Origin: an uncultured Candidatus Pelagibacter sp.
GTDB lineage: Bacteria; Pseudomonadota; Alphaproteobacteria; Pelagibacterales; Pelagibacteraceae
DNA: 40,312 nt
Direction: 5' to 3'
Assembly: GCA_913030805.1 (NCBI GenBank)
Contig: CAJWDL010000008.1
Location: forward strand, 1-40,312
Part shown: positions 5,352-40,312 of the stretch, piece by piece
How positions within the stretch are numbered: the stretch's first letter is position 1
Layout of the letters: each line of letters begins with the position of its first letter
Made by a program: the position numbers and the translations under genes
Notes under the pieces: generated by a model
The model's database searches: none
Told to the model about the DNA's origin: nothing
What the model saw: only the letters and a program-made list of their open reading frames with translations

Positions 5352-5387
5352 TATTTTATATTTAAATTTACTGTATTGTTGAAAACG

Positions 5388-6494
5388 ATGAAAGTTAAAA
5401 AAATTTTACAATTATATTTTAAAAGAATTTTTCAACTGATATTTAAATCAATCTATGGCAATATCAAGCTTGGAATTGATTTATCAAAAATAAAAAATGT
5501 AACCAAAAAAAAAATTGAAAATATTAAATCAGATATTGAAAATTCAAAAGATTATTACAGCTATAAAATAATCAATGGAAGAGTATATACTGATTATGTT
5601 GAGAATGTAGCAATAATTAGTAACAATATTCTGTTAGGTAAAATTTCATATCAGCAAATTTTAGGTGATTTAAAAGATGGTTCGAATAATGTTGTGTTAA
5701 CAAAAGGAACTCCTAGATTCAAAAAAAAAATTAAAGGTAAAATTTTATCAATTTTACAGGGTGCAAGTGGAAATAATTATGGACATTGGTTGCTTGATAT
5801 GTTGCCAAAAATAAAATTATGCTCCGAACATTACTCCTTGAATGATATTAATTATTTTTATACCCCAAATTTAACAGGCTTTCAGAAAGACACTTTATCT
5901 GTCTTGGGCATTAATGAAAACCGAATTGTTAACAGTGAAAAATTTAGACATATACAAGCGGACGAACTTTTAGTTGTAGATCATCCAAATTATTATGAGG
6001 GATATATTTTAAAACAAAATAAATTTCAACCAGCTTGGGTGATAAAATGGTTAAGAGATACATATTTAACACATGAAAAAAAATTTAATGTAAATAAAAA
6101 AATATTTATAGATCGTACCGACTCAACTTCCAAACACTGTCAAATCCAAAATGAAAGTGAAGTTTCTAATTTTTTAAAAAACGAAGGTTTTTCCAAATAT
6201 CAATTAACAAAATTATCTTTTTTTGAAAAGGTATATCTGTTTAGGAATGCAGAGGTTATTGTTGGGGCGCATGGGGCTGCTTTTGCAAATTTGACATTTT
6301 GTAAACCAAAAACAAAAGTTATAGAAATAAGACCTTGTATACACCCAAATACTGTATATGAAAGAATATCTTATATAAATGATTTAAACTATCAATTGAT
6401 ACAAACAAAAGAGACAGACGAGAACCAAAAAAAATTGGGAGACATCTATTTGCCTATAAAGGAACTTGAACAATGTATAATTAATTTTGGTTAA
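5388..6494 (+). CDS. Glycosyltransferase family 61 protein
   Basis: The 368-residue protein matches the GT61 (DUF563) family. It has the core signature NNYGHWLLDMLPKIK near residues 129-143, then KIFIDRTDS, and the late motif EVIVGAHGAAFANLTFCKP followed by VIEIRP, which end most GT61 proteins. GT61 enzymes transfer sugars such as xylose or GlcNAc to glycans; in bacteria they occur in capsule and lipopolysaccharide clusters. The frame is open from a TTG at 5376, but the ATG at 5388 is a better start. It is divergent from the SDR operon. No signal peptide or clear membrane span is present, although the N-terminus is basic and amphipathic and may touch the inner membrane. Confidence 0.88.
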   Translation: MKVKKILQLYFKRIFQLIFKSIYGNIKLGIDLSKIKNVTKKKIENIKSDIENSKDYYSYKIINGRVYTDYVENVAIISNNILLGKISYQQILGDLKDGSNNVVLTKGTPRFKKKIKGKILSILQGASGNNYGHWLLDMLPKIKLCSEHYSLNDINYFYTPNLTGFQKDTLSVLGINENRIVNSEKFRHIQADELLVVDHPNYYEGYILKQNKFQPAWVIKWLRDTYLTHEKKFNVNKKIFIDRTDSTSKHCQIQNESEVSNFLKNEGFSKYQLTKLSFFEKVYLFRNAEVIVGAHGAAFANLTFCKPKTKVIEIRPCIHPNTVYERISYINDLNYQLIQTKETDENQKKLGDIYLPIKELEQCIINFG

Positions 6495-6677
6495 CCTAAA
6501 GTTCGTTGATTACTTAATATATTTCTTAGATTATTTAATAAAAATAAGTAAAATAATTCGTTAGAAGATTTAAAAGTTTATAAAAAGATAATAAGATATC
6601 ATGGTTGTTTGTGTGAATATGGTTTAAAATGACCTTTTTTTTCTCTTCTCCGTTTTAAAAAAAATAATTAGTTTCAA

Positions 6678-6739
6678 TATAAAAAATCTTAAGTTATATA
6701 TTGAGCAAGATTCGTTTAATAAACTAAAAGGAGTGATTT
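6678..6739 (+). promoter_or_regulatory. Promoter and leader of microprotein gene 1
   Basis: TATATT at 6697-6702 is a plausible -10 box, starting 43 nt before the ATG at 6740. CTTAAGTT precedes it at 6688-6695. AGGAG at 6729-6733 is a strong ribosome-binding site 6 nt from the ATG. The whole 71-bp stretch 6678-6748 matches 7200-7270 at 67 positions without a gap. No convincing -35 hexamer was found. Confidence 0.65.
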
Positions 6740-6796
6740 ATGGAATGGCTTATACTTGTAGGCATAGTAGGAATAGCATATTATTTAAACCAGTAA
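6740..6796 (+). CDS. Membrane microprotein 1 (18 residues)
   Basis: A complete 18-codon gene encoding MEWLILVGIVGIAYYLNQ and ending in TAA. Residues 3-16 form one hydrophobic helix, long enough to insert in a membrane. Aromatic residues sit at both ends (Trp3; Tyr14-Tyr15) as expected at lipid interfaces, and the tail is polar. Three things support translation: an AGGAG site at ideal spacing, stronger than those of most neighbouring genes; a leader nearly identical to that of copy 3; and two further genes with the same M(E)W start, hydrophobic core, aromatic-Tyr pair and terminal Gln. I do not recognise the family. It could be a small subunit of a membrane complex, a regulator, or an Ibs-like toxin. 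No strong hairpin follows this copy. Confidence 0.72.
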   Translation: MEWLILVGIVGIAYYLNQ

Positions 6797-6932
6797 GAAT
6801 TTTCAAAATAAATTAATTTTGATTATGGAGCGATTTTGGGTGCGTGCGTATTGAGAATATGTATAGGAAATGATTATTTTGCGAACTCAAATGCCACTTA
6901 ATTATGCGCAAGTAATTAATTGACTTTAATGT

Positions 6933-6994
6933 TAAAATTCTTAAGTTGAGATATAATTTAACTAAGCTATATCAATAATTGAAAGGAGAAGTTT
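6933..6994 (+). promoter_or_regulatory. Promoter and leader of microprotein gene 2
   Basis: A consensus TATAAT lies at 6952-6957, again starting 43 nt before the ATG. CTTAAGTT at 6940-6947 is shared with copy 1, but three extra bases (GAG) separate it from the hexamer. AGGAG at 6984-6988 is 6 nt from the ATG. Apart from these elements the leader has diverged from copies 1 and 3. TTGACT at 6920-6925 is 26 nt from the hexamer, too far to be its -35. Confidence 0.6.
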
Positions 6995-7051
6995 ATGTGG
7001 ATACCTATATTAGCAGGAGCAGCTTTGGTTTGGTATTTTTCAACTCAGTAG
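6995..7051 (+). CDS. Membrane microprotein 2 (18 residues)
   Basis: An 18-codon gene encoding MWIPILAGAALVWYFSTQ, stop TAG. It is the most diverged of the three copies: it lacks the Glu after Met and has a Pro at residue 4. It keeps the N-terminal Trp, an Ala/Gly/Leu/Val core, the aromatic pair Trp13-Tyr14 and the terminal Gln. Start context (AGGAG, 6-nt spacer) and distance to the TATAAT box equal those of the other copies, so a chance ORF is unlikely. An 11-bp perfect inverted repeat begins 46 nt after the stop. Function is unknown; the predicted location is the inner membrane as a single-pass helix. Confidence 0.7.
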   Translation: MWIPILAGAALVWYFSTQ

Positions 7052-7096
7052 TCATTAGATTTCCTGATATAAATCGTATTTAAGATATCATAGGAA

Positions 7097-7130
7097 TTCT
7101 CAGTGCAGGCTCTTGAGTGTGCACTGAGAA
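7097..7130 (+). terminator. Hairpin downstream of microprotein gene 2
   Basis: TTCTCAGTGCA (7097-7107) and TGCACTGAGAA (7120-7130) form a perfect 11-bp stem with a 12-nt loop. T-rich sequence (TATTTTT) follows only after a short GGTG. It may be a terminator, an mRNA-stabilising 3' hairpin or a binding site. It is 46 nt beyond the stop, almost the same distance as the hairpin after copy 3. Confidence 0.6.
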
Positions 7131-7199
7131 GGTGTATTTTTGGCTAGAGAATCACATTTTACTCACTTCTCTCTGTTATAAAAAATTAATTGGTTTTAT

Positions 7200-7261
7200 T
7201 ATAAAAAATCTTGAGTTATATATTGAATAAGATTCGTTTAATAAATTAAAAGGAGTGATTT
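7200..7261 (+). promoter_or_regulatory. Promoter and leader of microprotein gene 3
   Basis: This aligns without gaps to 6678-6739, shifted by exactly 522 bp, with four substitutions over the 71-bp match that runs into the first codons. TATATT at 7219-7224 is the likely -10, 43 nt before the ATG. AGGAG is at 7251-7255, 6 nt from the ATG. CTTGAGTT stands where copies 1 and 2 have CTTAAGTT. Confidence 0.65.
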
Positions 7262-7315
7262 ATGGAATGGGTAGTTCTAGCCGCAGTAGTGTGGTACGTG
7301 TGGTCTCAGCAATAG
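7262..7315 (+). CDS. Membrane microprotein 3 (17 residues)
   Basis: A 17-codon gene encoding MEWVVLAAVVWYVWSQQ, stop TAG. It shares MEW with copy 1, and the aromatic cluster and final Gln with both others. It has three Trp and one Tyr in 17 residues, which is very aromatic for a helix of about 12 hydrophobic residues. After the shared MEW codons the DNA differs strongly from copy 1, while the 62 bases before the ATG are nearly identical, so leader and promoter are better conserved than the peptide. A GC-rich terminator follows 47 nt after the stop, implying a short single-gene mRNA. gyrB, 251 bp further on, has its own promoter region. Function is unknown. Confidence 0.72.
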   Translation: MEWVVLAAVVWYVWSQQ

Positions 7316-7329
7316 TCAAAGAGATCACC

Positions 7330-7349
7330 AAAATAATTTAAATTATTTT
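7330..7349. repeat. 20-bp perfect AT palindrome after microprotein gene 3
   Basis: The two 10-bp arms, AAAATAATTT (7330-7339) and AAATTATTTT (7340-7349), are exact reverse complements with no spacer, and a T-run continues to 7351. It lies between the microgene stop and the GC-rich terminator. It could be a weak terminator, a cruciform site or a binding site for a dimeric regulator. Confidence 0.45.
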
Positions 7350-7362
7350 TTTGAACAAGTTT

Positions 7363-7402
7363 AGAGGGAGTGTTGGCAAAAGCCCACTCCCTCTTTATTT
7401 TG
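7363..7402 (+). terminator. Rho-independent terminator of microprotein gene 3
   Basis: AGAGGGAGTG (7363-7372) pairs with CACTCCCTCT (7385-7394). The inner GGC/GCC also pairs across an AAAA loop with a TT bulge. TTTATTTT follows at once. It is the clearest intrinsic terminator in the window and separates the microgene region from gyrB. Confidence 0.85.
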
Positions 7403-7539
7403 TGTCTAAAAATGAGTTTTTTTCAATAAATTGAAAAACAAGAAATAAATTTATAAAAAATTTAAATTGGCTAGGATTATCAGCCTTATTTTAAGTGTAA
7501 AAAATTAGATCATTTTATTTAAACTCAAAAAAATGGTAA

Positions 7540-9636
<2,097 letters not shown>

Positions 9637-28359: not shown

Positions 28360-29085
28360 ATGAAATTAAAGTCTTCAAATTCCAAAATCTATTTGGGGGG
28401 GATATATTTAGCTGTTCTTTGTATAGCTATTTATTTTTTATTCTCAACTTTTGATATAAAGAATTTGACTAGCTATGAGTTTATAAAAGAAAACCGGGAA
28501 ATAATTATAAAGTATAAGGACAATAATATTTTCTTTCTCACGATTATTTTTTTTATTATTACTATTTTGTTAAATTTATTGTTATGTCCTATGCTATTAC
28601 CTACTTTGATAATTGGTTTTATTTTTGGTAAATGGTTAGGAACATTAATACTAATATTCGGGAATACAGTCGGTGGACTTTTATTGTGCCAGCTAGCAAA
28701 AACTTTTTTTAGTGATTTAATTGAAAAAAAATTTAAAACAAAATTTTCTAAATTTATAAATTTTTTTAATAAAAATGAGACAATATATTTTATGTGCTTT
28801 AGATTTATGGGAGGAGGAGGCACTCCTTTTCCTATACAGAATGTTTTGCCAGCTCTCTTTAATATGTCAGCTAAAAATTATATTATTGCTACATTTTTAG
28901 GAATAATTCCAACTACATTTGTAACAGTAGCGCTTGGTAGTGGTATAGAAAAAATTATTGACAAAAATGCCGAACTTAGTTTTTTGCCAGTCGTTCAATC
29001 TCCAGAAATTTATTTCCCAATAATTGGTTTTTTTATTCTTTTGTTAATAGGATTTGTAATTAAGAAAAATTACTTTAAAGAATAA
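28360..29085 (+). CDS. TVP38/TMEM64 (VTT-domain) membrane protein
   Basis: The 241-residue integral membrane protein has five or six hydrophobic segments and the VTT/SNARE-associated domain core. This shows as LLLCPMLLPTLIIGFIFGKWLGTLILIFGNTVGGLL, FMCFRFMGGGGTPFPIQNVLPALFNMSAKNYIIATFLGIIPTTF and a last helix before the basic end. The R-F-x-P-x-P/N pattern of DedA/TVP38 proteins is recognisable though altered (MGGGGTPFPIQN). Relatives are implicated in membrane lipid handling and homeostasis. It is divergent from rpmH with a 78-bp gap holding both promoters. It marks the edge between the core block and the variable polysaccharide region. Confidence 0.82.
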   Translation: MKLKSSNSKIYLGGIYLAVLCIAIYFLFSTFDIKNLTSYEFIKENREIIIKYKDNNIFFLTIIFFIITILLNLLLCPMLLPTLIIGFIFGKWLGTLILIFGNTVGGLLLCQLAKTFFSDLIEKKFKTKFSKFINFFNKNETIYFMCFRFMGGGGTPFPIQNVLPALFNMSAKNYIIATFLGIIPTTFVTVALGSGIEKIIDKNAELSFLPVVQSPEIYFPIIGFFILLLIGFVIKKNYFKE

Positions 29086-29122
29086 ATAGTCTTCACAAAT
29101 TCTAACAATTTAAATTGATTAT

Positions 29123-30352
29123 TTAATTATTATTAATTTTCTGGTACAAAATTTTTACCGTTTTGTAGGGTACTCTATATCCTGGGAAAGAAGATACGTC
29201 TCCCCTTAAAGAAGTTTGCGGAGTCCATCCAAAGGCATACAGAATAAAACATACAACAAGTAAGTATTTTTTATTTTGAACAAAAGATATTTTTTTTGTT
29301 ATTTTTTCTAAATTAATTTTTATCAAATTATTTTGAAGCAAATAAAAGTAAAAAAGTGCTGTAAATGTATAACTAATGTTAACTATTCTTCCCCAATCAC
29401 CCATCATTGCGAATAAAACTAAAATTGGAGTTAATAATATTAAAATTGGATGTAATAAATTTTTAAAGTGTTTAAAAAATAAAATTTTTATTTTTAATTT
29501 TGAGTTATAACCCAATAAAAAAATTGGTCCAAAACCGATTAATATAATAAGAGGATATCTTATTAGACTTTCAAACAAGACTGCTTGATAAGTTCCTAAA
29601 AATTGTGAAATAATTGAAGATCTGGACAGCAACATACCGCATGACATATAACAATCTTCGGTAAAATTTTCCTTCAAAGAATTAGCCATAATCGAATGAT
29701 TTTCAGGAGTAATGGGGTTAGTTGCAATTATCATCACCACTATTAATGCAGGAATAAAACTTATTGTTATTTTGCTCAAAAGTGTTGTGATTTGATTGTT
29801 TCTAAGTCTAATTACCAAAACTGATGCTATGAATGGAAAAAAAAACACCACCGGTTCCCAAATTAAACAAATAATGGGTAAAACGAAAAAAACGTAATAA
29901 AGAGGAAGATTGCTTGAATAATTAAAATTTGAAATATTTAAAAATAATAGAAAACCGATAAATACAAATGTTTCTTTTCTTGCCAAAACCTCAATTTCAG
30001 CAACGGGATATAATAGAAAAATAGGCGTAAAAATTGACAATATAATAATTAAATTTGTGGGTATATTTCTGAAAAATCTATAAATCAGAATCAGAAAAAT
30101 TGCATATATAAACGATTGAAACAAAAATATTACAAATCTAAGACTTAAACCAAAATGTATTGCAATTTGAAAGCATATTTCTCCAATCAAACCTCTTTTT
30201 GTAAAACCACCCTGATAGTTTATTATCCACTCCGAAATAGTTGAATCATTTCCAACGGAATGCTTTATATATAACCAGAAAATTCCAAAAAGGAATAATA
30301 GGGACAAATATATAATGAAATAATTATTAAATTTTTTTATTTTTGTAGGCAA
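29123..30352 (-). CDS. Polytopic membrane protein of the polysaccharide region
   Basis: The 409-residue protein has about ten hydrophobic segments. Polar landmarks are SEWIINYQGGFTKRGLIGEI in the first periplasmic or cytoplasmic loop, AEIEVLARKETFVF in the middle, MMGDWGRIVNISYTF and FGWTPQTSLRGDVSSFPGYRVPYKTV near the end. The Arg-Gly-Leu-Ile-Gly-Glu segment and the late Gly-Asp-Trp-Gly-Arg pattern recall uncharacterised membrane proteins of surface-glycan clusters, perhaps GT-C-like transferases or polymerase-type proteins. I cannot name the family. It follows the DegT aminotransferase gene by 15 bp on the same strand. Confidence 0.6.
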   Translation of the reverse strand: MPTKIKKFNNYFIIYLSLLFLFGIFWLYIKHSVGNDSTISEWIINYQGGFTKRGLIGEICFQIAIHFGLSLRFVIFLFQSFIYAIFLILIYRFFRNIPTNLIIILSIFTPIFLLYPVAEIEVLARKETFVFIGFLLFLNISNFNYSSNLPLYYVFFVLPIICLIWEPVVFFFPFIASVLVIRLRNNQITTLLSKITISFIPALIVVMIIATNPITPENHSIMANSLKENFTEDCYMSCGMLLSRSSIISQFLGTYQAVLFESLIRYPLIILIGFGPIFLLGYNSKLKIKILFFKHFKNLLHPILILLTPILVLFAMMGDWGRIVNISYTFTALFYFYLLQNNLIKINLEKITKKISFVQNKKYLLVVCFILYAFGWTPQTSLRGDVSSFPGYRVPYKTVKILYQKINNN

Positions 30353-30367
30353 TTTTAATTTATATTT

Positions 30368-31507
30368 TTATTTAAGAATTTTATTAACAGTTAATGAAAT
30401 ATAGTCAATATCTTTTTTTTTTAGTTTAAAATATGATGGCAGGTACAGCCCATACCTAGCTAAATAAGATGAGTTTGGAAATTTTTTTTTCTTAAATATT
30501 TTCATTTTTTTAAAAATATGTTGTTCGTGCATTGGCCAAAAAAAGGGTCTTGTTTTAATTCCGTATCGCGCAATTATTTTAGAAAACTTAGATGCTGTCA
30601 TTATATTTTTTCTGATTACAATTCCTACTACCCAATAAATATTTTTTGAAAATTCATTTGAGGGAGGTAGTATTTGTATATTGGAATTTTGATGTAATTT
30701 TTTATAATAATAGCTGCCGATTTCCATTTTTTTATTAACCATATGTTTGATATTTTTAAGTTGGCTTAATCCCAGGGCAGCCTGTATGTTTGTCATTCTA
30801 TAGTTCCACCCTAAACCAACGTGGTTAAATCTATTTAATTTACCAAAACATAAGTTTCTTAAAGATTTGCATTTTTCATATATTTTACGACTATTCATTG
30901 ATAACATTCCACCTTCTCCACTAGTTACCTGCTTGTTGGCATAAAAACTAAAAGTACTTATATCCCCAAAACTTCCGCAAATCTTATTTTTATATTTTAA
31001 TCCCAAAACTTCAGCAGCATCTTCTATAACAAGTAAATTATATTTTTTACAAATTTTTAAAATTTTTTGCATTTCATTTGGAAATGAATAAATATGTGTA
31101 ATAATTATCGCCTTGGTTTTTTTTGAAATATTTTTTTCAACATCTTCAATCTTAATGTTCCAATCTTTTAGATTACAATCAATTAAAACTGGTTTTGCTT
31201 GTTGCCTTATTACCGCTAATGCATTAGAAATTATTGTAAAATTAGGTATCAAAACCTCATCATTTTTTTTTATATCAAGTGCCTTAATTGCAATTTCTAA
31301 AGCAGCAGTTCCACTAGAAACTGCTACAGAATATTTTTTGTCTATAAAACGGGAAAATTCTTTTTCAAATTTTTTTACATCTGGGCCATCGGATGATATC
31401 CAGCCACTTTTTAATATCCGATTAACACTGTTAATGTCTTTTCTGGAAATATAAGGTGAGCTGACTGGGTAAAAAGGCTTTTTATTTGAATTTAATCTTT
31501 TTCTCAT
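30368..31507 (-). CDS. DegT/DnrJ/EryC1/StrS-type sugar aminotransferase
   Basis: The 379-residue PLP enzyme would aminate a keto-sugar nucleotide. Family motifs are YISRKDINSVNRILKSGWISSDGPDVKKFE, SSGTAALEIAIKAL, VLIPNFTIISNALAV, LLVIEDAAEVLG (PLP-ring Asp) and TFSFYANKQVTSGEGGM with the Schiff-base Lys192. GLGWNYRMTNIQAALGLSQL follows. The frame extends one codon upstream to a TTG, but the ATG at 31507 is used here. It overlaps the upstream cupin gene by 26 bp, suggesting that cupin and aminotransferase serve the same amino-sugar pathway. Confidence 0.9.
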   Translation of the reverse strand: MRKRLNSNKKPFYPVSSPYISRKDINSVNRILKSGWISSDGPDVKKFEKEFSRFIDKKYSVAVSSGTAALEIAIKALDIKKNDEVLIPNFTIISNALAVIRQQAKPVLIDCNLKDWNIKIEDVEKNISKKTKAIIITHIYSFPNEMQKILKICKKYNLLVIEDAAEVLGLKYKNKICGSFGDISTFSFYANKQVTSGEGGMLSMNSRKIYEKCKSLRNLCFGKLNRFNHVGLGWNYRMTNIQAALGLSQLKNIKHMVNKKMEIGSYYYKKLHQNSNIQILPPSNEFSKNIYWVVGIVIRKNIMTASKFSKIIARYGIKTRPFFWPMHEQHIFKKMKIFKKKKFPNSSYLARYGLYLPSYFKLKKKDIDYISLTVNKILK

Positions 31508-31913
31508 CAACTGTTTTAAATTTCACTTTATCACCTGTTAGGCTATAGGGACCTTGTTTTACCTCAATCATTTCAACATTTTTTAAAACCTTAAAGCCAT
31601 GTCCGCCATAAATTAACATGAGTATATCCCCTTCATTAATTATTTTACTAAGCAAATACTTGTTATCATTATTATAAAAATCCACTCTCAAAGTACCTTT
31701 TAATAATAAAATCACTTCAGTGCTTCCAAGAATTCTTGTTAGACGTTTATTATGTTTATGTGGTTTTATGAAATGATTTTTTTTATGCTTCATGAATCCA
31801 ATTTGTTGGGTGATATCTTTTGAAGTAAAGAAATTTATTCCGCTTTTTTTTCTGAATTGTCTTCTGATAATTAAGGCAAAAAGTCTTTTTTTGCGTAATA
31901 CTTTTTCAATCAT
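31482..31913 (-). CDS. Cupin-domain protein linked to sugar modification
   Basis: The 143-residue protein has a very basic N-terminus (KVLRKKRLFALIIRRQFRKK). A cupin barrel follows, with KKNHFIKPHKHNKRLTRILGSTEVILLLKGTLRVDFYNND, then INEGDILMLIYGGHGFKVLKNVEMIEVKQGPY. The HxH-x(n)-E and late G-x-H-G-F pattern suggests a metal site. Such small cupins commonly sit beside DegT aminotransferases in glycan clusters, where some isomerise or carry sugar nucleotides; the activity here is not known. The gene overlaps the start of the aminotransferase. Upstream on the same strand lies a degraded GT2 fragment. Confidence 0.7.
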   Translation of the reverse strand: MIEKVLRKKRLFALIIRRQFRKKSGINFFTSKDITQQIGFMKHKKNHFIKPHKHNKRLTRILGSTEVILLLKGTLRVDFYNNDNKYLLSKIINEGDILMLIYGGHGFKVLKNVEMIEVKQGPYSLTGDKVKFKTVDEKKIKFK

Positions 31914-31953
31914 AAAAAAATCATACCATGGATTTCAAATTAAACTTCATAAG

Positions 31954-32274
31954 TTAGTTTCTTCTATTACGTGCATGAAAAATTACACTAAGATAGTGAA
32001 AACGCAAATGAATAAAATGAAAGAGTTTAGGGGCTGCCTCATTTCGTGTTACCAAATCTGCCTGGTGTACAAAAGGTATCTCGCAAATTTTTGCATCCCT
32101 TTTAGGTATCTTACAAATAAATTTGGCAAAAAATTCGCCATAGTTAAAACAATTTGGAATTGCTGTTAAAAGTACTTTTCTTTCCATGACAAACATTCCA
32201 CTAGTATAATCTTTTATTTTTTTACTTAAAGGAATATTTTTATCCTTGAAATAAAAGATTAGATTATTTTTTTT
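31954..32274 (-). pseudogene. C-terminal remnant of a GT2 (Dpm1-like) glycosyltransferase
   Basis: An open frame of 106 codons, limited upstream by a TAA at 32275-32277, reads NLIFYFKDKNIPLSKKIKDYTSGMFVMERKVLL, then FNYGEFFAKFICKI and KICEIPFV. It ends in a Leu/His/Arg-rich tail. This lines up with the C-terminal part of the intact GT2 gene at 33793-34572 (DYTSGFVCVKRKIF, NYGDYFVNFIVHC, IIELPFIEKARHSG). The N-terminal GT-A domain with its Asp-rich site is missing, and the frame runs straight into the end of the membrane-protein gene at 32264. It is best read as what remains after a deletion. An ATG at 32196 could start an 80-residue piece, but that would lack any catalytic site. Confidence 0.75.
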
Positions 32275-33712
32275 TTAGCTGATTTGTTAATAAAACAAAT
32301 CCATTTCCAAAAAAAAATGATAAATAAATTAAGATTGGAACAAAAAGTCTGGGCATGCCAGTCCATCCAAATAAAATTATATAATAAAGTATTGATAATG
32401 TGAGTAATGATAATAACTGATAATTTTTTTGTTTTAAAAAATAGATTAAACCAACAAAACAAACAAAATAAATCAATAGTGTGTAAATGATTCTATAAGG
32501 TATCCAGTTTTTATGTGTTTTACTTTTGATAAATGCTGGCTTTTTATTTTGACCCCTGTGTTCATTATAATAATAGTTATGAGTGGGGTCTAAAACAACA
32601 AAATGAATCGCTCTTTTAATTGCTTGTTTTGTAGCAATCAACGGATTTTCAAATATAATTTTGTATTGTCTTTTATTAACATATTCATAAAATTTTATTT
32701 TGTCTTTTTCATTTTCGAAAAATTTTATAAAATACAAAATACTAAAAGCTTTATCTAAATCAAACCCACCTTCTAATTTAATGTTATTATCTTTTAACCA
32801 TTTGTAAGCTTTTTGAGCTTCTTTTTTTTGTATCTTAGTCTCAGAAATTTTCTCTTTTTGTGCAAGTAAAGGGATAGAAAAAAGAATATATATATCTTGT
32901 TTTCCCACAGGTGGAAAAAAATAAAAAACATCTGATTTTTTATAATTATAAATTCCTATTAATAAAACTATTAGTGTATATCCTACGACACTAGCAATTA
33001 TTGGTTTTACAGATTTTGATCTATAGGAAAAAACAAAATAAATTATTATTGGTATTATATAAAAAATACCCACAGATCTTTGTAAAAATAATATACCCAC
33101 AAGGATTCCAACAAATAAGTTATCAGAAATCTTATAGGAATTGTTAAGCAACAAACCTAATATTAAAATTTGTAATGTAAAATAAAATGACTCAGTCCAA
33201 AAAGACGCATGATATTGAAATATTGTATGTTCAAAGGCAAGAAAAAATACTATGTAAAAACAATTTTCAATCGGAAAAATCTTACTGATCTTTAATACTA
33301 AATAAACCAAGGCCAGATAATAAACTAAGGATTGAATAATCAAAAATGGAAGCTTTCCGCCTAACTTTATTTTTATGCTTGGTTCCCATTCATCGATTAT
33401 TTTGTGTCCTGATAACAAGGAATATATTGCAACAAGTCTTTGAGGCAAAGGTTTTGTATATACAGCTTCACCAGATAAAAAAAAATTTTTTCCATTTTTC
33501 ACATCCTCTACAATTTTTGCAGCTTCATGCCAAGTTCTCATGATATCGTCTTGAAACATCACATGTGTGTGGCCATCGTCCCTATATTTATCATATTTCA
33601 TTATGTAATAGTTGCTGAGAACTATTGAAGAGATTAAACCTAAAAAAATAAGAACAAAAATTTTTTTTAATGTATAATAAGAATTACTTTTATAAGTAAA
33701 ATAATTGTTCAT
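32264..33712 (-). CDS. Large polytopic membrane protein, GT-C-like
   Basis: The 482-residue protein has roughly ten hydrophobic helices. After helix 1 comes a long polar loop, KYDKYRDDGHTHVMFQDDIMRTWHEAAKIVEDVKNGKNFF, whose Asp pair after the first membrane span is the layout of GT-C glycosyltransferases that use polyprenyl-phosphate sugars. Later polar blocks are FWTESFYF, FPPVGKQDIYILFSIPLLAQ and FVVLDPTHNYYYNEHRGQNKK. The last part ends in Lys residues. Its neighbour is a Dpm1-like GT2 gene, which would make the polyprenyl-phosphate sugar such an enzyme needs. The assignment to GT-C is inference from topology and context. Confidence 0.6.
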   Translation of the reverse strand: MNNYFTYKSNSYYTLKKIFVLIFLGLISSIVLSNYYIMKYDKYRDDGHTHVMFQDDIMRTWHEAAKIVEDVKNGKNFFLSGEAVYTKPLPQRLVAIYSLLSGHKIIDEWEPSIKIKLGGKLPFLIIQSLVYYLALVYLVLKISKIFPIENCFYIVFFLAFEHTIFQYHASFWTESFYFTLQILILGLLLNNSYKISDNLFVGILVGILFLQRSVGIFYIIPIIIYFVFSYRSKSVKPIIASVVGYTLIVLLIGIYNYKKSDVFYFFPPVGKQDIYILFSIPLLAQKEKISETKIQKKEAQKAYKWLKDNNIKLEGGFDLDKAFSILYFIKFFENEKDKIKFYEYVNKRQYKIIFENPLIATKQAIKRAIHFVVLDPTHNYYYNEHRGQNKKPAFIKSKTHKNWIPYRIIYTLLIYFVCFVGLIYFLKQKNYQLLSLLTLSILYYIILFGWTGMPRLFVPILIYLSFFFGNGFVLLTNQLKKK

Positions 33713-33792
33713 TCCTTAAAATTATTAGTTAATCTATTATACCAATAATTATTAATGCCATAGGATTAATATTTGATAGAGATTATAGATTA

Positions 33793-34572
33793 TTAACTTA
33801 ATATTTTTCTAAAAAAGTTCTTTATCAAGCTAAGAAAATAGTGAAGTGACAAGATGAAGTAATTAAAAGTTCCCCCTATTGATATTTCTAATTTACCTCC
33901 TACATCTTTACCAAACATGCTAGTTTTTGATGAACCGGAGTGTCTTGCTTTTTCTATGAACGGAAGTTCAATAATTGAATAGTTATTTTGTCTGCAATGA
34001 ACTATAAAATTAACAAAGTAATCTCCATAATTTCCTTTTAGTTTGTAATTTTCAAATATTTTCCTTTTAACACATACAAAACCACTGGTGTAATCAGTTA
34101 TATCTCTATAAAGAAAAAAATTACACAACCTATTAAAAAAAAAACTTTGATTTTCATTAAGTTCCTTTTTTGATTTATCATCTTTAAAATATCTGACACT
34201 ATTTTTAAGAAATCTGGAAAAAATTACTATGTCGTATTTTTTTTGATAATCATGAAATAATTTAATGCAATCTGGTGGATGTTGAAGATCGGTATCCATC
34301 CATATGATATTTTCATGTTTTGATTTTTGTATACCTAAATAGATAGAATTGGCTAAATTTTTCTTTAGATTATGTCTTACAAATAGTTTTATATTGTCGT
34401 AATCTTTTGCTACATCTTTTACTAAATCAATAGTTCCATCGGTTGAATTATCATCAACAACCATTATTTCATATTCTTGCTGAATTTCAGAAAAAATTAA
34501 TCTAATTTTTTTTATTAATTGAATTATGTTACCTTTTTCATTTAGCGTAGGAAGAATGACTGAATAACTCAT
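33793..34572 (-). CDS. GT2 polyprenol-phosphate sugar transferase (Dpm1-like)
   Basis: The 259-residue GT-A glycosyltransferase has SVILPTLNEKGNI, EIMVVDDNSTDGT (nucleotide-binding Asp pair), IIWMDTDLQHPP with the metal-binding Asp93/Asp95, DYTSGFVCVKRKIF, NYGDYFVNFIVHC and IIELPFIEKARHSGSSKTS. This pattern is that of dolichol/polyprenol-phosphate mannose or glucose synthases lacking the extra C-terminal GtrA-type membrane domain. It would load a sugar on a lipid carrier at the inner membrane for a GT-C enzyme, probably the neighbouring membrane protein 80 bp downstream on the same strand. A truncated relative lies at 31954-32274. Confidence 0.85.
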   Translation of the reverse strand: MSYSVILPTLNEKGNIIQLIKKIRLIFSEIQQEYEIMVVDDNSTDGTIDLVKDVAKDYDNIKLFVRHNLKKNLANSIYLGIQKSKHENIIWMDTDLQHPPDCIKLFHDYQKKYDIVIFSRFLKNSVRYFKDDKSKKELNENQSFFFNRLCNFFLYRDITDYTSGFVCVKRKIFENYKLKGNYGDYFVNFIVHCRQNNYSIIELPFIEKARHSGSSKTSMFGKDVGGKLEISIGGTFNYFILSLHYFLSLIKNFFRKILS

Positions 34573-34649
34573 TGATTGAGTATGTTAATAAAATTTATTT
34601 ACTTTAGTTTATTTTTTTCATAAATAACACATCAAATCTAAAAACAAAA

Positions 34650-35315
34650 ATGTTTATAATATCTAAATATATTAAGAATTATGGTTTCAAAAATTTTATA
34701 AAAATTTTTTTACTAGAATTAATTTATATTGTCAAATTTTTCGATTTAAAAAATTTAGATATAAAACAATTCAATACAACCGGACAGTTTAATACGAAAC
34801 AATTTTATTTTAAGGGAAAAAAAACTTATAATGTCGGATATTTTCCGGTTACATATTATGCTCTAAAATTTATTTTGAACAATTTTGAAATAATTAATAA
34901 TGAAAATAGTATTATATTAGATTTTGGATGTGCAGATTGTAGATTAGCAAAATTTCTTTTTAAATCCTATTATTATGGTTTTGATATTAATAGAAAATAC
35001 TTGGTTTATAACAAATTAAAAAATGCTAAAATTTACAATGTTGACTTAAGGAATATAAAAAAAAGAAAAATTATTTTTAATAAATTAAAAATTTCTAAAA
35101 ATAAGAATGTCGTTTTATTTTTCAATGATCCTTTTGAAATTGATCTTGTTAACAAAATTATTTCTTATTTTAAAAAAAAGTATAAAAAAGTTTATTTAAT
35201 TCTAATAAATACTCCAAATATCAATCTATTTGAGAGAAAAAAATTTTTTGTAAGAAAAAAAAAAGTTTTCTTAAATAAAAAAAGAAATATATTTATCCTT
35301 GAAACAAAAGTTTAA
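34650..35315 (+). CDS. Class I SAM-dependent methyltransferase-like protein
   Basis: The 221-residue protein contains a motif I SAM-binding loop, SIILDFGCADCRLAKFLFKSYYYGFDI (Gly93; acidic residue of motif II at Asp112). VVLFFNDPFEIDLVNKII follows as motif IV. The N-terminal 80 residues hold KTYNVGYFPVTYYALKFIL, and the C-terminus is extremely Lys-rich. Base composition is even more AT-rich than the neighbours. It is the first of three plus-strand genes in an otherwise minus-strand region. The substrate is unknown; methylation of a glycan or lipid-linked sugar would suit the location. Confidence 0.72.
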   Translation: MFIISKYIKNYGFKNFIKIFLLELIYIVKFFDLKNLDIKQFNTTGQFNTKQFYFKGKKTYNVGYFPVTYYALKFILNNFEIINNENSIILDFGCADCRLAKFLFKSYYYGFDINRKYLVYNKLKNAKIYNVDLRNIKKRKIIFNKLKISKNKNVVLFFNDPFEIDLVNKIISYFKKKYKKVYLILINTPNINLFERKKFFVRKKKVFLNKKRNIFILETKV

Positions 35316-35393
35316 ATGAGATCCTTCACCAAAAGGGGAAAATTAACTAGTCATTTTAAAATCTTAACTTTAATATGAATCTTTTCAGTTTTT

Positions 35394-36389
35394 ATGAATA
35401 AAAATAAGAAAATTATTTTAACAATATTGGGATATCTGATTAGTTTGTCTCTGCTTATTATAATATTCAAAGATACCAACTTTGAAAGAGTTTTTGGATA
35501 TCTTAAAAAAATAGATCCATTTCTAGTACTGCTAGCTTTGCTATTGAATGTAATATTTGTATGGATACGTGGTGCTTACCAAAAAAATAATCTACATATC
35601 ACAACGCCAAATATACGCTTAGGTACATCTATAGTATCCATTGGAGTATCTTTATTTTATAATGCAGTTCTTCCAACCAGATTAGGTGACGTTATAAGGG
35701 CGGTTTTTATTTCGTTGAGAGATAATATAAAAAAAAAAAGATTACTACCATATATTCTAGTGGAGAAGATTATTGATTTTTTATTTGTAATATTTTTTTT
35801 TTTTCTTATTGTAATAATTGAATCAGAAGGTGAGATTTTATCTTATCTTTTTGTTACTTTAGCAGTGATAATAATCTCCATAATAACTTTTATTTTATAT
35901 GTTAAGTTTAATAAAAAAGTTATTAATTTTGTACTATCAATAGTACCAGCGAAATTTAATAAATTATTTTCTGAGATTAATCATGAGGCAATAAACGGTA
36001 TGTCATGTTTTAAAACCAAGAACCAAATTACCAAAAGTTTAGTGCTACTTATTAGTGGTTGGATTATCATGCTATGCATATTTTATATATTATCATATCC
36101 ATTTATTGATCAACTGAATCTTCCAAATTATTCTTCTATTTATTTTTTATTTTTTTCCGCTGTTGCATTATCTTTGCCAAGCGCACCTTCAGGCATTGGA
36201 ACCGTACATTATGGACTTTATCTTGCTGTGCAAATCCTAATGGGTGGAGATGTGTCAAATGATCAAAGCGATTTGGTTGCAGCATTAATAATTAGTCTAC
36301 ATTTTTTACTAGTCGTACTCGATGTCATTGTTGGAGGGGTAATTCTATTGATATATAGACAAAAAGGTGTAAAATTTGTTGACAAATGA
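35394..36389 (+). CDS. Flippase-like membrane protein (lysylphosphatidylglycerol-synthase TM family)
   Basis: The 331-residue protein has about eight membrane helices and matches the LPG_synthase_TM/UPF0104 family. Visible signs are the early VWIRGAYQKNNLH, FYNAVLPTRLGDVIRAVFI (the conserved P-x-R-x-G-D/E-x-x-R block), and LSLPSAPSGIGTVHYGLYLAVQ (P-S-x-P-G/S-x-x-G block), with a last basic segment. There is no C-terminal aminoacyl transfer domain, so it belongs to the short, transporter-like members often found next to glycolipid enzymes. It is followed 37 bp later by the radical-SAM gene. Confidence 0.82.
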   Translation: MNKNKKIILTILGYLISLSLLIIIFKDTNFERVFGYLKKIDPFLVLLALLLNVIFVWIRGAYQKNNLHITTPNIRLGTSIVSIGVSLFYNAVLPTRLGDVIRAVFISLRDNIKKKRLLPYILVEKIIDFLFVIFFFFLIVIIESEGEILSYLFVTLAVIIISIITFILYVKFNKKVINFVLSIVPAKFNKLFSEINHEAINGMSCFKTKNQITKSLVLLISGWIIMLCIFYILSYPFIDQLNLPNYSSIYFLFFSAVALSLPSAPSGIGTVHYGLYLAVQILMGGDVSNDQSDLVAALIISLHFLLVVLDVIVGGVILLIYRQKGVKFVDK

Positions 36390-36426
36390 TTTTATGATAG
36401 CGTGAAACGATTTTATAGTATTTTTT

Positions 36427-37968
36427 ATGAAAGTATTGTTCCTTAATCCTCCTGACTTTAACAAAGTATCCGAGAATATTGTTGACGAAAAATCACAGGA
36501 ATATCTTGAAAGTGATGATTTTGGTGCCTTTCCACCCTTAGGTATTATGTACGTAATGGCATATCTCGAAAAACATGCTCCACACCACAAATTGTATTTT
36601 AAAGATTGTGTGGCTGAAAGATATGGCCATAAAAATCTCTGCGATTATGTAACTGAAATGAAACCGGATATTGTGGCTATGACAAGTTTTACTGTATCCA
36701 TGATTGACGTGGTTATTGCGGCGCAAAATATTAGAAAAATTATACCAAATGCACATATTTGTTTGGGGGGTCATCACCCAATTGCTTTTCCTTTTGAGGC
36801 AGCTAGCTTACCAGAATTTGATAGCATTATTGTTGGAGAGGGCGAAATTGTGTTTACTGAATTAGTGAAAAGAATTGAAAATAAAAAACCCTTTACAGAT
36901 ATTCTAGGTGTGTACACAAATGAGTCTATTCAAAAATATCGAAACACTACTTTGAAAGATCGGAGATTTCTTAATAAAGTTAAGGTTCCGCCAGCATATA
37001 TTGACGATATAGATTCTTTGCCAATGCCAAATCGAGAATATATTAAGCACATAAACTATCAAAGTGTTGTTGGAGTATCATCTAAACTAGCTACACTCAT
37101 CTCTAGTAGAGGATGTCCTTATAAATGTACGTTTTGTGATGTGCCAATTAAAACACATAGACGTAGAGATCCCAAGTTGGTTGTTGATGAAATGGAGACA
37201 TGTGTAGCACAAGGTTATGAGGAAATACATTTTTACGATGATCTTTTTAATATTACTCCTCAAAGAGTAATAGATATCTGTGATGAAATAGATAAAAGAG
37301 GTTTAAAGGTTGTTTGGGATTATAGAGGCAGAGTAAATGGAATTGATGAGGAATCGATAAAAAGATTTAAAAAGGCAGGTGGTAGATTGATATCTTTTGG
37401 CATTGAAACATCCACACAAGAGGGTCTTCAAATGATGCGCAAAGGTACGAAAGTAAAACAAAATATTGATGCATTAAAGTTGTGTAAAAAATATGGAATT
37501 GTAAGTCTCGCTGATTTTATTATTGGTCTTCCTCACGAAAAATCGTATGACGATGTATTGAAAAGTATAAAGATACTAACTCACGACTATCGTCCAGATT
37601 ATGCTCAATTTTCAATACTTTCTCTGTATCCAAATACCGAAGTATATGATCAAGCAGTGGCAAAGGGCTTGATAAAAGATGGTCAATGGAATGAATGGGC
37701 TAGAGATCCTTTGAATGCTAAGTTAAAAGTCGGACATTGGAATGAATATGTTTCAATGGAAGAACTTGTAAAATTGCAGAAAAAAGCTTACCGTATTTTC
37801 TATTTCAGCCCACCTATAATATGGGGACAAATAAAACAGATAAAGTCATTTCATGAATTCAAAACTAAGATAATGGGTGCTCTAAATGTTTTGGGTATTA
37901 ATTTTAAGAAGCTTAGTATATTTAAGTCTAAGCTATCCAAACTAGATAATCAGGCTTCAATTAGTTAG
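36427..37968 (+). CDS. Cobalamin-binding-domain radical SAM enzyme
   Basis: The 513-residue protein has an N-terminal B12-binding-like Rossmann domain (residues 1-150: VLFLNPPD, PLGIMYVMAYLEKH, DIVAMTSFTVS, HICLGGHHPIAFP). A radical-SAM barrel follows with the cluster motif SSRGCPYKCTFCDVP (Cys230, Cys234, Cys237), GRLISFGIETSTQEGLQMMRKGT and DFIIGLPHEKSYDDV. The domain pair is typical of class B methylases and BchE-like enzymes; the reaction is unknown. Its DNA looks less AT-rich than the two genes before it, which hints at separate acquisition. Use of cobalamin would require uptake, since no B12 biosynthesis genes beyond cobS/cobT are in the window. Confidence 0.87.
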   Translation: MKVLFLNPPDFNKVSENIVDEKSQEYLESDDFGAFPPLGIMYVMAYLEKHAPHHKLYFKDCVAERYGHKNLCDYVTEMKPDIVAMTSFTVSMIDVVIAAQNIRKIIPNAHICLGGHHPIAFPFEAASLPEFDSIIVGEGEIVFTELVKRIENKKPFTDILGVYTNESIQKYRNTTLKDRRFLNKVKVPPAYIDDIDSLPMPNREYIKHINYQSVVGVSSKLATLISSRGCPYKCTFCDVPIKTHRRRDPKLVVDEMETCVAQGYEEIHFYDDLFNITPQRVIDICDEIDKRGLKVVWDYRGRVNGIDEESIKRFKKAGGRLISFGIETSTQEGLQMMRKGTKVKQNIDALKLCKKYGIVSLADFIIGLPHEKSYDDVLKSIKILTHDYRPDYAQFSILSLYPNTEVYDQAVAKGLIKDGQWNEWARDPLNAKLKVGHWNEYVSMEELVKLQKKAYRIFYFSPPIIWGQIKQIKSFHEFKTKIMGALNVLGINFKKLSIFKSKLSKLDNQASIS

Positions 37969-38050
37969 AATAACAGCAAAATCAAAAAAAATTTAAAAGG
38001 AATGGTGCCCACATTTCGGATCAAAAGGATTTATTTATAGTTGTTCATAA

Positions 38051-39111
38051 TCAAGACTGTTGCCCACTTCGCACTGTAAAACTACATTTTCTAAAATCTT
38101 TTGATTTTTTAATAAAATCTAAAAAAAATAAAATTTCCATAAACCAATTCTTTTTTTCCTTATTTAAATTGCTTGAAAAGAAATTTATTATTTCATTTTT
38201 TTGTGTAAGCCACTGCGAGTAACCATTTTTAGCAAATTGAATACGATAATTTACGTTATCAAATATATCGTTATAATCGATTAATTTTTCACTTTTTTTA
38301 TTAATGAGAAATCCAATTTTCTTATCCGTAATATATTCATTCATGGTAGAATCATCATAGGAGACAATATATTTACCCATTGAAATCGCTTCCAAAAAAC
38401 CCATTCCTATACCTTCTTGCTTTCTGGGTGAAATGAACACGTCACAATTTTTTACATATTCAATGTATTGGGTTTGAGGAAGAAAAGTCTTCTTTACAAG
38501 CTCTATTTTATATTTGTTTAAAATTGTTTTATCAAATTCTTCAGGATTTTTTCCTGAATCAGGACTGTCAAAATAAATTATTTTGTTAATTGTATCTAAA
38601 TCAAACAAACCTAGCCAATCATTTAACCTTAAAGTGCTTCTAAACCAAAAAAAAATATTTAAAGTTTTTTGAGGAGTTTTAAATTCCATTTCTTTTGGCC
38701 TAATAAAATACTTTAGTCCTATATTCTGACAACCTATTTTATCCGCATGTAATTTAATTTTATTGGAAAAACATAATAATTTAATGTTTATATATTTGAT
38801 TTTTTTCCAATATTTCCACTCAAAAGATAAGGTATCATACATTGGTGCCCACATTAAATTTTTACCTCTTAGTTTTAATAGATCATATGAAGGTATTTTA
38901 GTTTTAATAGATCATATGAAGGTATTAATGTCTGGAAAAAAAATATATTTTCATAATTCTTTAAGTATTTAATTAATTTTTTTTCTTCATTCAATGACCA
39001 CCAATAATTATCTATGGTAAAATATTCAGAGAATATTTCCCTTAAGAAATCAGCGCACCTAGTTTTCTTGTGATAATCATGGTCAACGAAAGCTAATTTT
39101 TTTTTAACCAT
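38051..39111 (-). pseudogene. GT-B glycosyltransferase split by a 29-bp tandem duplication
   Basis: Two frames make one gene. The 5' part (39111 down to about 38875, 78 codons) reads MVKKKLAFVDHDYHKKTRCA and ends ENIFFFQTLIPSYDLLKL before going out of frame. The 3' part resumes as RGKNLMWAPMYDTLSFEW and runs to 38051, with the GT-B donor-site block ISPRKQEGIGMGFLEAISMG. The break is an exact 29-bp tandem duplication at 38869-38926. Removing one copy gives 1032 bp, 344 codons including stop, in one frame. As given, the product is truncated at about 78 residues, or the C-terminal part starts at the ATG at 38854. It may be a real mutation, a reversible switch, or an assembly error. Confidence 0.85.
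38869..38926. repeat. Perfect 29-bp tandem direct repeat
   Basis: Positions 38869-38897 and 38898-38926 are identical. The unit begins TTAGTTTTAATAGATCATAT and ends GAAGGTATT. Since 29 is not a multiple of three, the second copy shifts the frame of the glycosyltransferase on the minus strand. No transposase-type ends or target signature surround it; replication slippage is the simplest origin. Confidence 0.95.
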
Positions 39112-39128
39112 ATTTAAAATTATAAATT

Positions 39129-40161
39129 TTATGCCAACACCCGTGATATTAGCTTTTTGTTGTTATAAACCCATGACATGAGTTTTTTTATACCTATTTC
39201 AGGGCTAATTGAAGGCTCCCACCCAAATTGTTTTTTTAACTTTGAATTATTACTAATATACACTTTTTGGTCACCTAGTCTCCATTTAGAAAAATTAACT
39301 TTAATTTTTTTTCCCATTATTTTTTCTAAAATTTTTATTAATTCAAGTATACTTAATGAAAAATTACAACCACCTCCGACATTATAAACTCTGTCAACAT
39401 CAATTTTTTTATTATTTGCTAAAATTTCAAACAAACGATTCAAATCATCAATATATAATAAATCTCTTACTTGCTTGCCATCTCCGAATATAGTAATTTT
39501 TTTTTTCTAATATCGAAGCTATAACAAACCAAGCTAACCAACCTTGATCTTCAATTCCAAATTGATTTGGACCATAGATACAACTTTGTCTCAATACGTA
39601 ACCGTTAATTCCGTACATTCTTGAATAGTCTCTCACATATTGGTCGGCTGCACCCTTTGAACATCCATAAGGAGAGTGAAAATCTGTTTTATTTTCTTCA
39701 TCAATACCTTTAATATTATTTTTGTATATATAGCGATTTTTGTCAATTTTAACTTTATTAGAACCTAAATTACCATAGACTTTATTTGTTGAAGTATAAA
39801 TTACGGTAGATTTCAATTTATTAACACGAATTGACTCAAGAACATTTAAATTTCCAAGAGCATTAATTTCAAAATCTTCTCGAGGATTTAAAAAAGAAGT
39901 TGTAACTGCAACCTGACCTGCGCAATGAATAATAACATTTGGATTAATATTTGATAGTGTTTTTGATAATTCTTTAAATTTTCTTATATCACCTCTAATG
40001 AATCGTACATTGGTTTCTTTTTTTAACCATTTAATGTTAAAAATTGTTCCCTTTCTAGATAAATTATCAAAGATATACACTTGCCATTTTTTTTTAAAAA
40101 AATAATGTGCCGCATTACTTCCTATAAAACCTGCCCCTCCAGTAATAAATATTTTTTTCAT
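39129..40161 (-). pseudogene. CDP-paratose 2-epimerase-like SDR, frameshifted at a homopolymer
   Basis: The N-terminal 237-codon frame has the NAD loop ITGGAGFIGSN, VYIFDNLSRKGTIFNIKWLK (typical of CDP-paratose 2-epimerases), VIYTSTNKVYG and the catalytic SPYGCSKGAADQYVRDYSRMYG, then drifts to nonsense after ASILEKK. If one A of the A10 tract (39497-39506, T on the plus strand) is removed, it continues KKITIFGDGKQVRDLLYIDDLNRLFEILANNKK into the second frame. That frame ends with the VYNVGGGCNFSLSILELIKILE block. The corrected gene is 1032 bp, about 343 residues, the family's normal size. Causes could be mutation, slippage-based switching, or a sequencing error. Confidence 0.85.
39497..39506. 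repeat. 10-base T/A homopolymer at the frameshift
   Basis: Ten T on the plus strand (A10 in the coding strand). Nine would restore the frame of the CDP-paratose 2-epimerase-like gene. Tracts of this length are prone to slippage by polymerases in vivo and to sequencing errors. Confidence 0.8.
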
Positions 40162-40267
40162 TTTCAGTATTTAAAAATTATTTCATTTATAGAACTTTTA
40201 ATCCGTTGCAACATGTTCTCCAATTAAACTAATTCTCGTTTAATAATCAAGGAAATTCAATTTGATT

Positions 40268-40312
40268 TGGTGCCCACAGTGTGAGTCGAACACACGGCCT
40301 CTTCCTTACCAT
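40268..40312 (-). tRNA. tRNA, probably Thr (anticodon GGU), truncated by the window edge
   Basis: On the minus strand the 3' half reads from the anticodon loop AUGGUAA (anticodon GGU) through the stem GGAAG and variable loop AGGCC. The T-arm GUGUG-UUCGACU-CACAC and acceptor UGUGGGC follow, then discriminator A and an encoded CCA. Spacing fits a class I tRNA exactly. Only the 3' part is visible, so the identity rests on the anticodon position. The polysaccharide region ends 107 bp from it. Confidence 0.8.

Follow-up and report, generated by a model that had tools for sequence, protein, structure and literature searches.

The window analysed (the whole stretch of DNA, 40,312 nucleotides) carries on its minus strand a glycosyltransferase gene that is interrupted by the 29-bp unit TTAGTTTTAATAGATCATATGAAGGTATT, present as two perfect copies placed end to end (38869-38926). 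As assembled, this gene has 1061 bp, and subtraction of one copy leaves 1032 bp. Both the exact extra copy and the 1032-bp length had been proposed in a sequence-only reading of this DNA, and both were reproduced here by direct comparison. The frame that begins at the start codon ends early, and downstream of the duplication the gene is open in another frame as far as position 38051. The features of the locus are listed in Table 1.

Table 1. Coordinates of the interrupted gene and of the features that surround it in the window.
Feature	Position	Strand	Basis
GT4-type glycosyltransferase gene, interrupted by the duplication (ATG at 39111, final stop at 38051)	38051-39111	-	PF00534 on the C-terminal part; homologs h1-h3 in two frames
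Truncated product, 78 aa plus stop (38875-38877)	38875-39111	-	Translation, frame 0 from ATG 39111
C-terminal ORF, 267 aa, internal ATG with AGAGGT upstream	38051-38854	-	ORF list, Pfam, translation
29-bp unit, copy 1	38869-38897	.	Direct sequence comparison
29-bp unit, copy 2, identical, adjoins copy 1	38898-38926	.	Direct sequence comparison
NAD-dependent sugar epimerase/dehydratase gene, split in two frames near a T10 tract	39129-40161	-	Both pieces match PF16363
Hypervariable glycan island, VTT-domain gene to tRNA-Thr	29086-40267	.	Comparison with relatives and gene content
tRNA-Thr(GGT), 3' part, contig ends within	40268-40312	-	Its own sequence, and the closely similar intact gene called tRNA-Thr in relatives

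The match at a period of 29 is exactly 29 bases long and the flanking base differs on both sides, so that microhomology at the borders of the duplication is zero. Only two copies of one unit are found at this site, and an array of several short tandem units is absent from it. A chance origin of the repeat was rejected, because about 2e-11 full tandem copies with a period of at least 29 would be expected in the window. When 440 kb of the genome were scanned, the 29-bp duplication was the only full, exact tandem copy whose period was 12 bp or longer; this count sets aside one 18-bp row, itself a multiple of a 9-bp array. In the 800 kb of a closed relative (G012) that were scanned, three exact full tandem copies were found, two of them short and the third of 45 bp in low-complexity sequence.

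Domain content, homologs and ancestral frame

The Pfam profile search located the donor-binding domain PF00534 (Glycos_transf_1) on the C-terminal part of the gene, with a score of 49.2 bits against a curated cut-off of 26.4, and gave no Pfam match for the N-terminal part. The GT4 donor-site half is present in the 267-aa ORF, from which the beginning of the N-terminal domain is missing. The two glycosyltransferase domains do not share a single continuous frame; their frames differ, and the junction lies at the duplication. On these features the gene is filed as a broken member of the GT4-type family (Pfam Glycos_transf_1), and the Pfam match agrees with the glycosyltransferase function suggested in the sequence-only reading.

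Three homologs were taken from a translated search, h1 (Methylocystis), h2 (Methylovirgula) and h3 (Pseudosulfitobacter), all of them glycosyltransferases. Each of them matches the N-terminal and the C-terminal parts in different frames, and the two frames meet at the duplication. For h1, residues 9-60 of the N-terminal part aligned with 4-55 and the alignment of the C-terminal part began at 14 with 65; the step between these alignment points is 10 residues, compared to 11 in the single-copy reading, an agreement within one residue. Since three independent homologs align collinearly with the single-copy reading, a single copy is the ancestral state, and the duplication disables the gene as assembled. 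The earlier suggestion that the extra copy breaks the gene is thus borne out by this collinearity, together with the end of frame 0 after 78 aa.

A search for close carriers of the glycosyltransferase gene covered 197 relatives, some 400 genomes of the phylum, a genome collection and viral contigs, and none was found. The gene was not found in phages either, and plasmids contained distant homologs only. DNA-level matches to the gene were short and AT-rich and were disregarded. Alleles with one and two copies could not be compared, because no second strain with the gene was found in the collections searched.

The glycan island and the neighbouring epimerase gene

The glycosyltransferase gene adjoins on its upstream side the epimerase/dehydratase gene, located on the same strand, and this broken pair sits at the tRNA-Thr end of the island, whose opposite border is the VTT-domain gene (28360-29085). 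The two pieces of the epimerase/dehydratase gene match PF16363 in order (1-188 and 253-331 of 332), and the frame changes close to the T10 tract (39497-39506). Because this gene is independently frameshifted, loss of the 29-bp duplication alone would not restore the gene pair.

Besides the broken pair, the island includes genes for a GT2 glycosyltransferase, a DegT-type aminotransferase, a B12-binding radical SAM protein and a flippase-like membrane protein. The distance from the VTT-domain gene to tRNA-Thr is 11.2 kb here, compared to 4.6 kb in G001, 4.9 kb in G003, 1.4 kb in G004 and 3.1 kb in G011. Gene content differs in all four of these relatives, the glycosyltransferase/epimerase pair is missing from the locus in every one of them, and an unclassified gene (29123-30352) is the only gene of this island with a clear counterpart in relatives, namely in G001 and G004. 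The locus therefore appears to be a hypervariable glycan island, in which turnover and decay would be expected.

The sequence TGGTGCCCACA, which corresponds to the 3' end of tRNA-Thr (acceptor stem plus CCA), was found at 38003-38013, 38843-38853 and 40268-40278, in the same orientation and within 2.3 kb. It occurs nowhere else in the genome, and in relatives the number of copies never exceeds two and is usually one or zero. The copy at 38843 codes for the glycosyltransferase residues MWAP, and the copy at 38003 is located 3' of the gene. Past integration at the tRNA end could have left these three copies behind; none of the genes examined was recognised as an integrase. Elsewhere in the window, about 1 kb (6495-7566) contains no ORF of at least 80 aa, between an ORF at 5376-6494 and a gyrase-like ORF at 7567-9636.

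The genome is AT-rich (28% GC), with about 1 Mb assembled and 80% completeness, and presumably belongs to a SAR11-like alphaproteobacterium. The duplication and the T10-tract frameshift are about 0.6 kb apart or less, and both lie 0.8-1.4 kb from the contig end, which falls inside tRNA-Thr. Elsewhere, 217 kb of coding sequence with a match in the closed relative G012 were screened, including 138 A/T tracts of at least 9, and no frameshift was detected; one apparently split gene on contig C3 was rejected as a frameshift, as this genome seems to have two separate genes where G012 has a fusion of them. The clean 217-kb screen indicates that the two lesions cluster locally and do not reflect the general error rate. 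Genome-wide sequencing or assembly noise is unsupported, since no other such duplication was found in the 440 kb scanned and no frameshift in the matched coding DNA. Such a cluster would fit a dispensable gene pair in decay, or else locally poor assembly near the contig end, and not a generally bad assembly.

Origin of the duplication

The explanation favored here, to which an even chance is given, is that a recent 29-bp tandem duplication is a loss-of-function mutation in a decaying accessory GT4 glycosyltransferase. The glycosyltransferase and the sugar epimerase/dehydratase would form a two-gene piece at the tRNA-Thr end of the island, with both genes in decay, and a duplication that arose recently would have knocked out the former. 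Any decay of the glycosyltransferase gene should be very recent, because the two 29-bp copies have not diverged and no additional stop interrupts the C-terminal ORF. The duplication is probably present in the cells, where it would act as a plain loss-of-function mutation, and the glycan made by the island is presumably located on the surface.

An assembly artefact is nearly as plausible, and it is kept as a tentative second explanation. Two pieces overlapping by 29 bp would have been joined without merging, close to the end of a contig and in a region that varies between strains, and the T-tract frameshift would be an error of the same poor stretch. An unmerged overlap would leave zero extra matching bases at the border, as observed, although a border without microhomology often arises by chance as well. 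The contig breaks off within tRNA-Thr, at the boundary of island and core, a place where the assembly would branch if several strains co-existed, and the proximity of the two lesions, with none elsewhere in the sampled genome, points in the same direction. However, the 440 kb free of any other such duplication argue against a systematic assembly fault, and the 138 A/T tracts elsewhere were read without a frameshift.

In the sequence-only reading, a precisely reversible slipped-strand event was suggested as a possible on/off switch for a surface glycan, which might be of use against phage. Such a phase-variation switch, in which gain or loss of one 29-bp copy would turn the glycosyltransferase off or on and diversify a surface glycan in the population, is improbable. 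The perfect tandem repeat lies within a glycosyltransferase gene whose intact frame would be restored by a single copy, and there is a precedent in the spontaneous reversible duplications of pneumococcal capsule genes (passages in PMC4243769 and PMC4022640). Nevertheless, there are two copies only, with neither an array nor the microhomology that would indicate slippage, the two-copy reading runs into a stop, no alternative allele was seen in the genome and viral collections searched, and the neighbouring epimerase, independently broken, would also need restoring. Of the precise reversibility that had been suggested, what stands is that loss of one copy could revert the repeat, as it could in principle with every perfect tandem repeat; nothing points to regulated or selected switching. 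A fixed mutation and an artefact, which had been mentioned as alternatives to the switch, are together likelier than the switch itself. It is highly doubtful that two linked lesions of the slippage type (the 29-bp copy and the 10-base homopolymer), at the end of a tRNA-anchored island, switch the gene pair between on and off states within the population. The least probable explanation is a split gene yielding the 78-aa N-terminal peptide and, by re-initiation at ATG 38854, the 267-aa protein: the stop is followed by AGAGGT and then by the ATG (38852-38854), about 20 bases past the stop, but both this ATG and AGAGGT sit in ordinary coding sequence and the 267-aa protein would be missing the beginning of the N-terminal domain, which is present in all three homologs.

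Comparison with known systems

Streamlined aquatic bacteria such as SAR11 contain hypervariable glycan regions, and the locus described here is similar in having a variable glycan block between conserved flanks, rnpA/yidC/VTT on one side and tRNA-Thr/dcd/murA on the other. In simple-sequence contingency loci, such as those of Haemophilus lipopolysaccharide and of the gonococcal protein II genes, slipped-strand phase variation takes place in arrays of many short units. As in those loci, repeat number sets the reading frame of a gene for a surface structure; unlike them, this gene contains two copies of one 29-bp unit. A limited literature search on Pelagibacter and phase variation gave only passing mentions of both terms.

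Were the duplication real and polymorphic, it would point to phase variation of surface glycans in a streamlined lineage. On present evidence the case illustrates either gene decay or an assembly problem at the border of a hypervariable glycan island, and it shows that 'switches' proposed from a single assembly need reads.

The closest comparison is with the pneumococcal genes cap3A, cap8E (wchA) and tts, in which spontaneous sequence duplications cause reversible capsule loss, according to passages in PMC4243769 and PMC4022640 that cite Waite et al. 2001, 2003. An exact tandem duplication that breaks a glycan gene, as in cap3A, is also found here: in both cases it lies inside a gene for glycan synthesis and abolishes the product, and losing one copy could restore it. 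In the pneumococcal genes, which serve the main capsule, phase variation and reversion have been reported, whereas here there is one assembled sequence and no revertant, the gene belongs to a different family, and a second broken gene lies alongside. If the duplication were real and reversible, its mechanism would resemble that of the pneumococcal capsule duplications.
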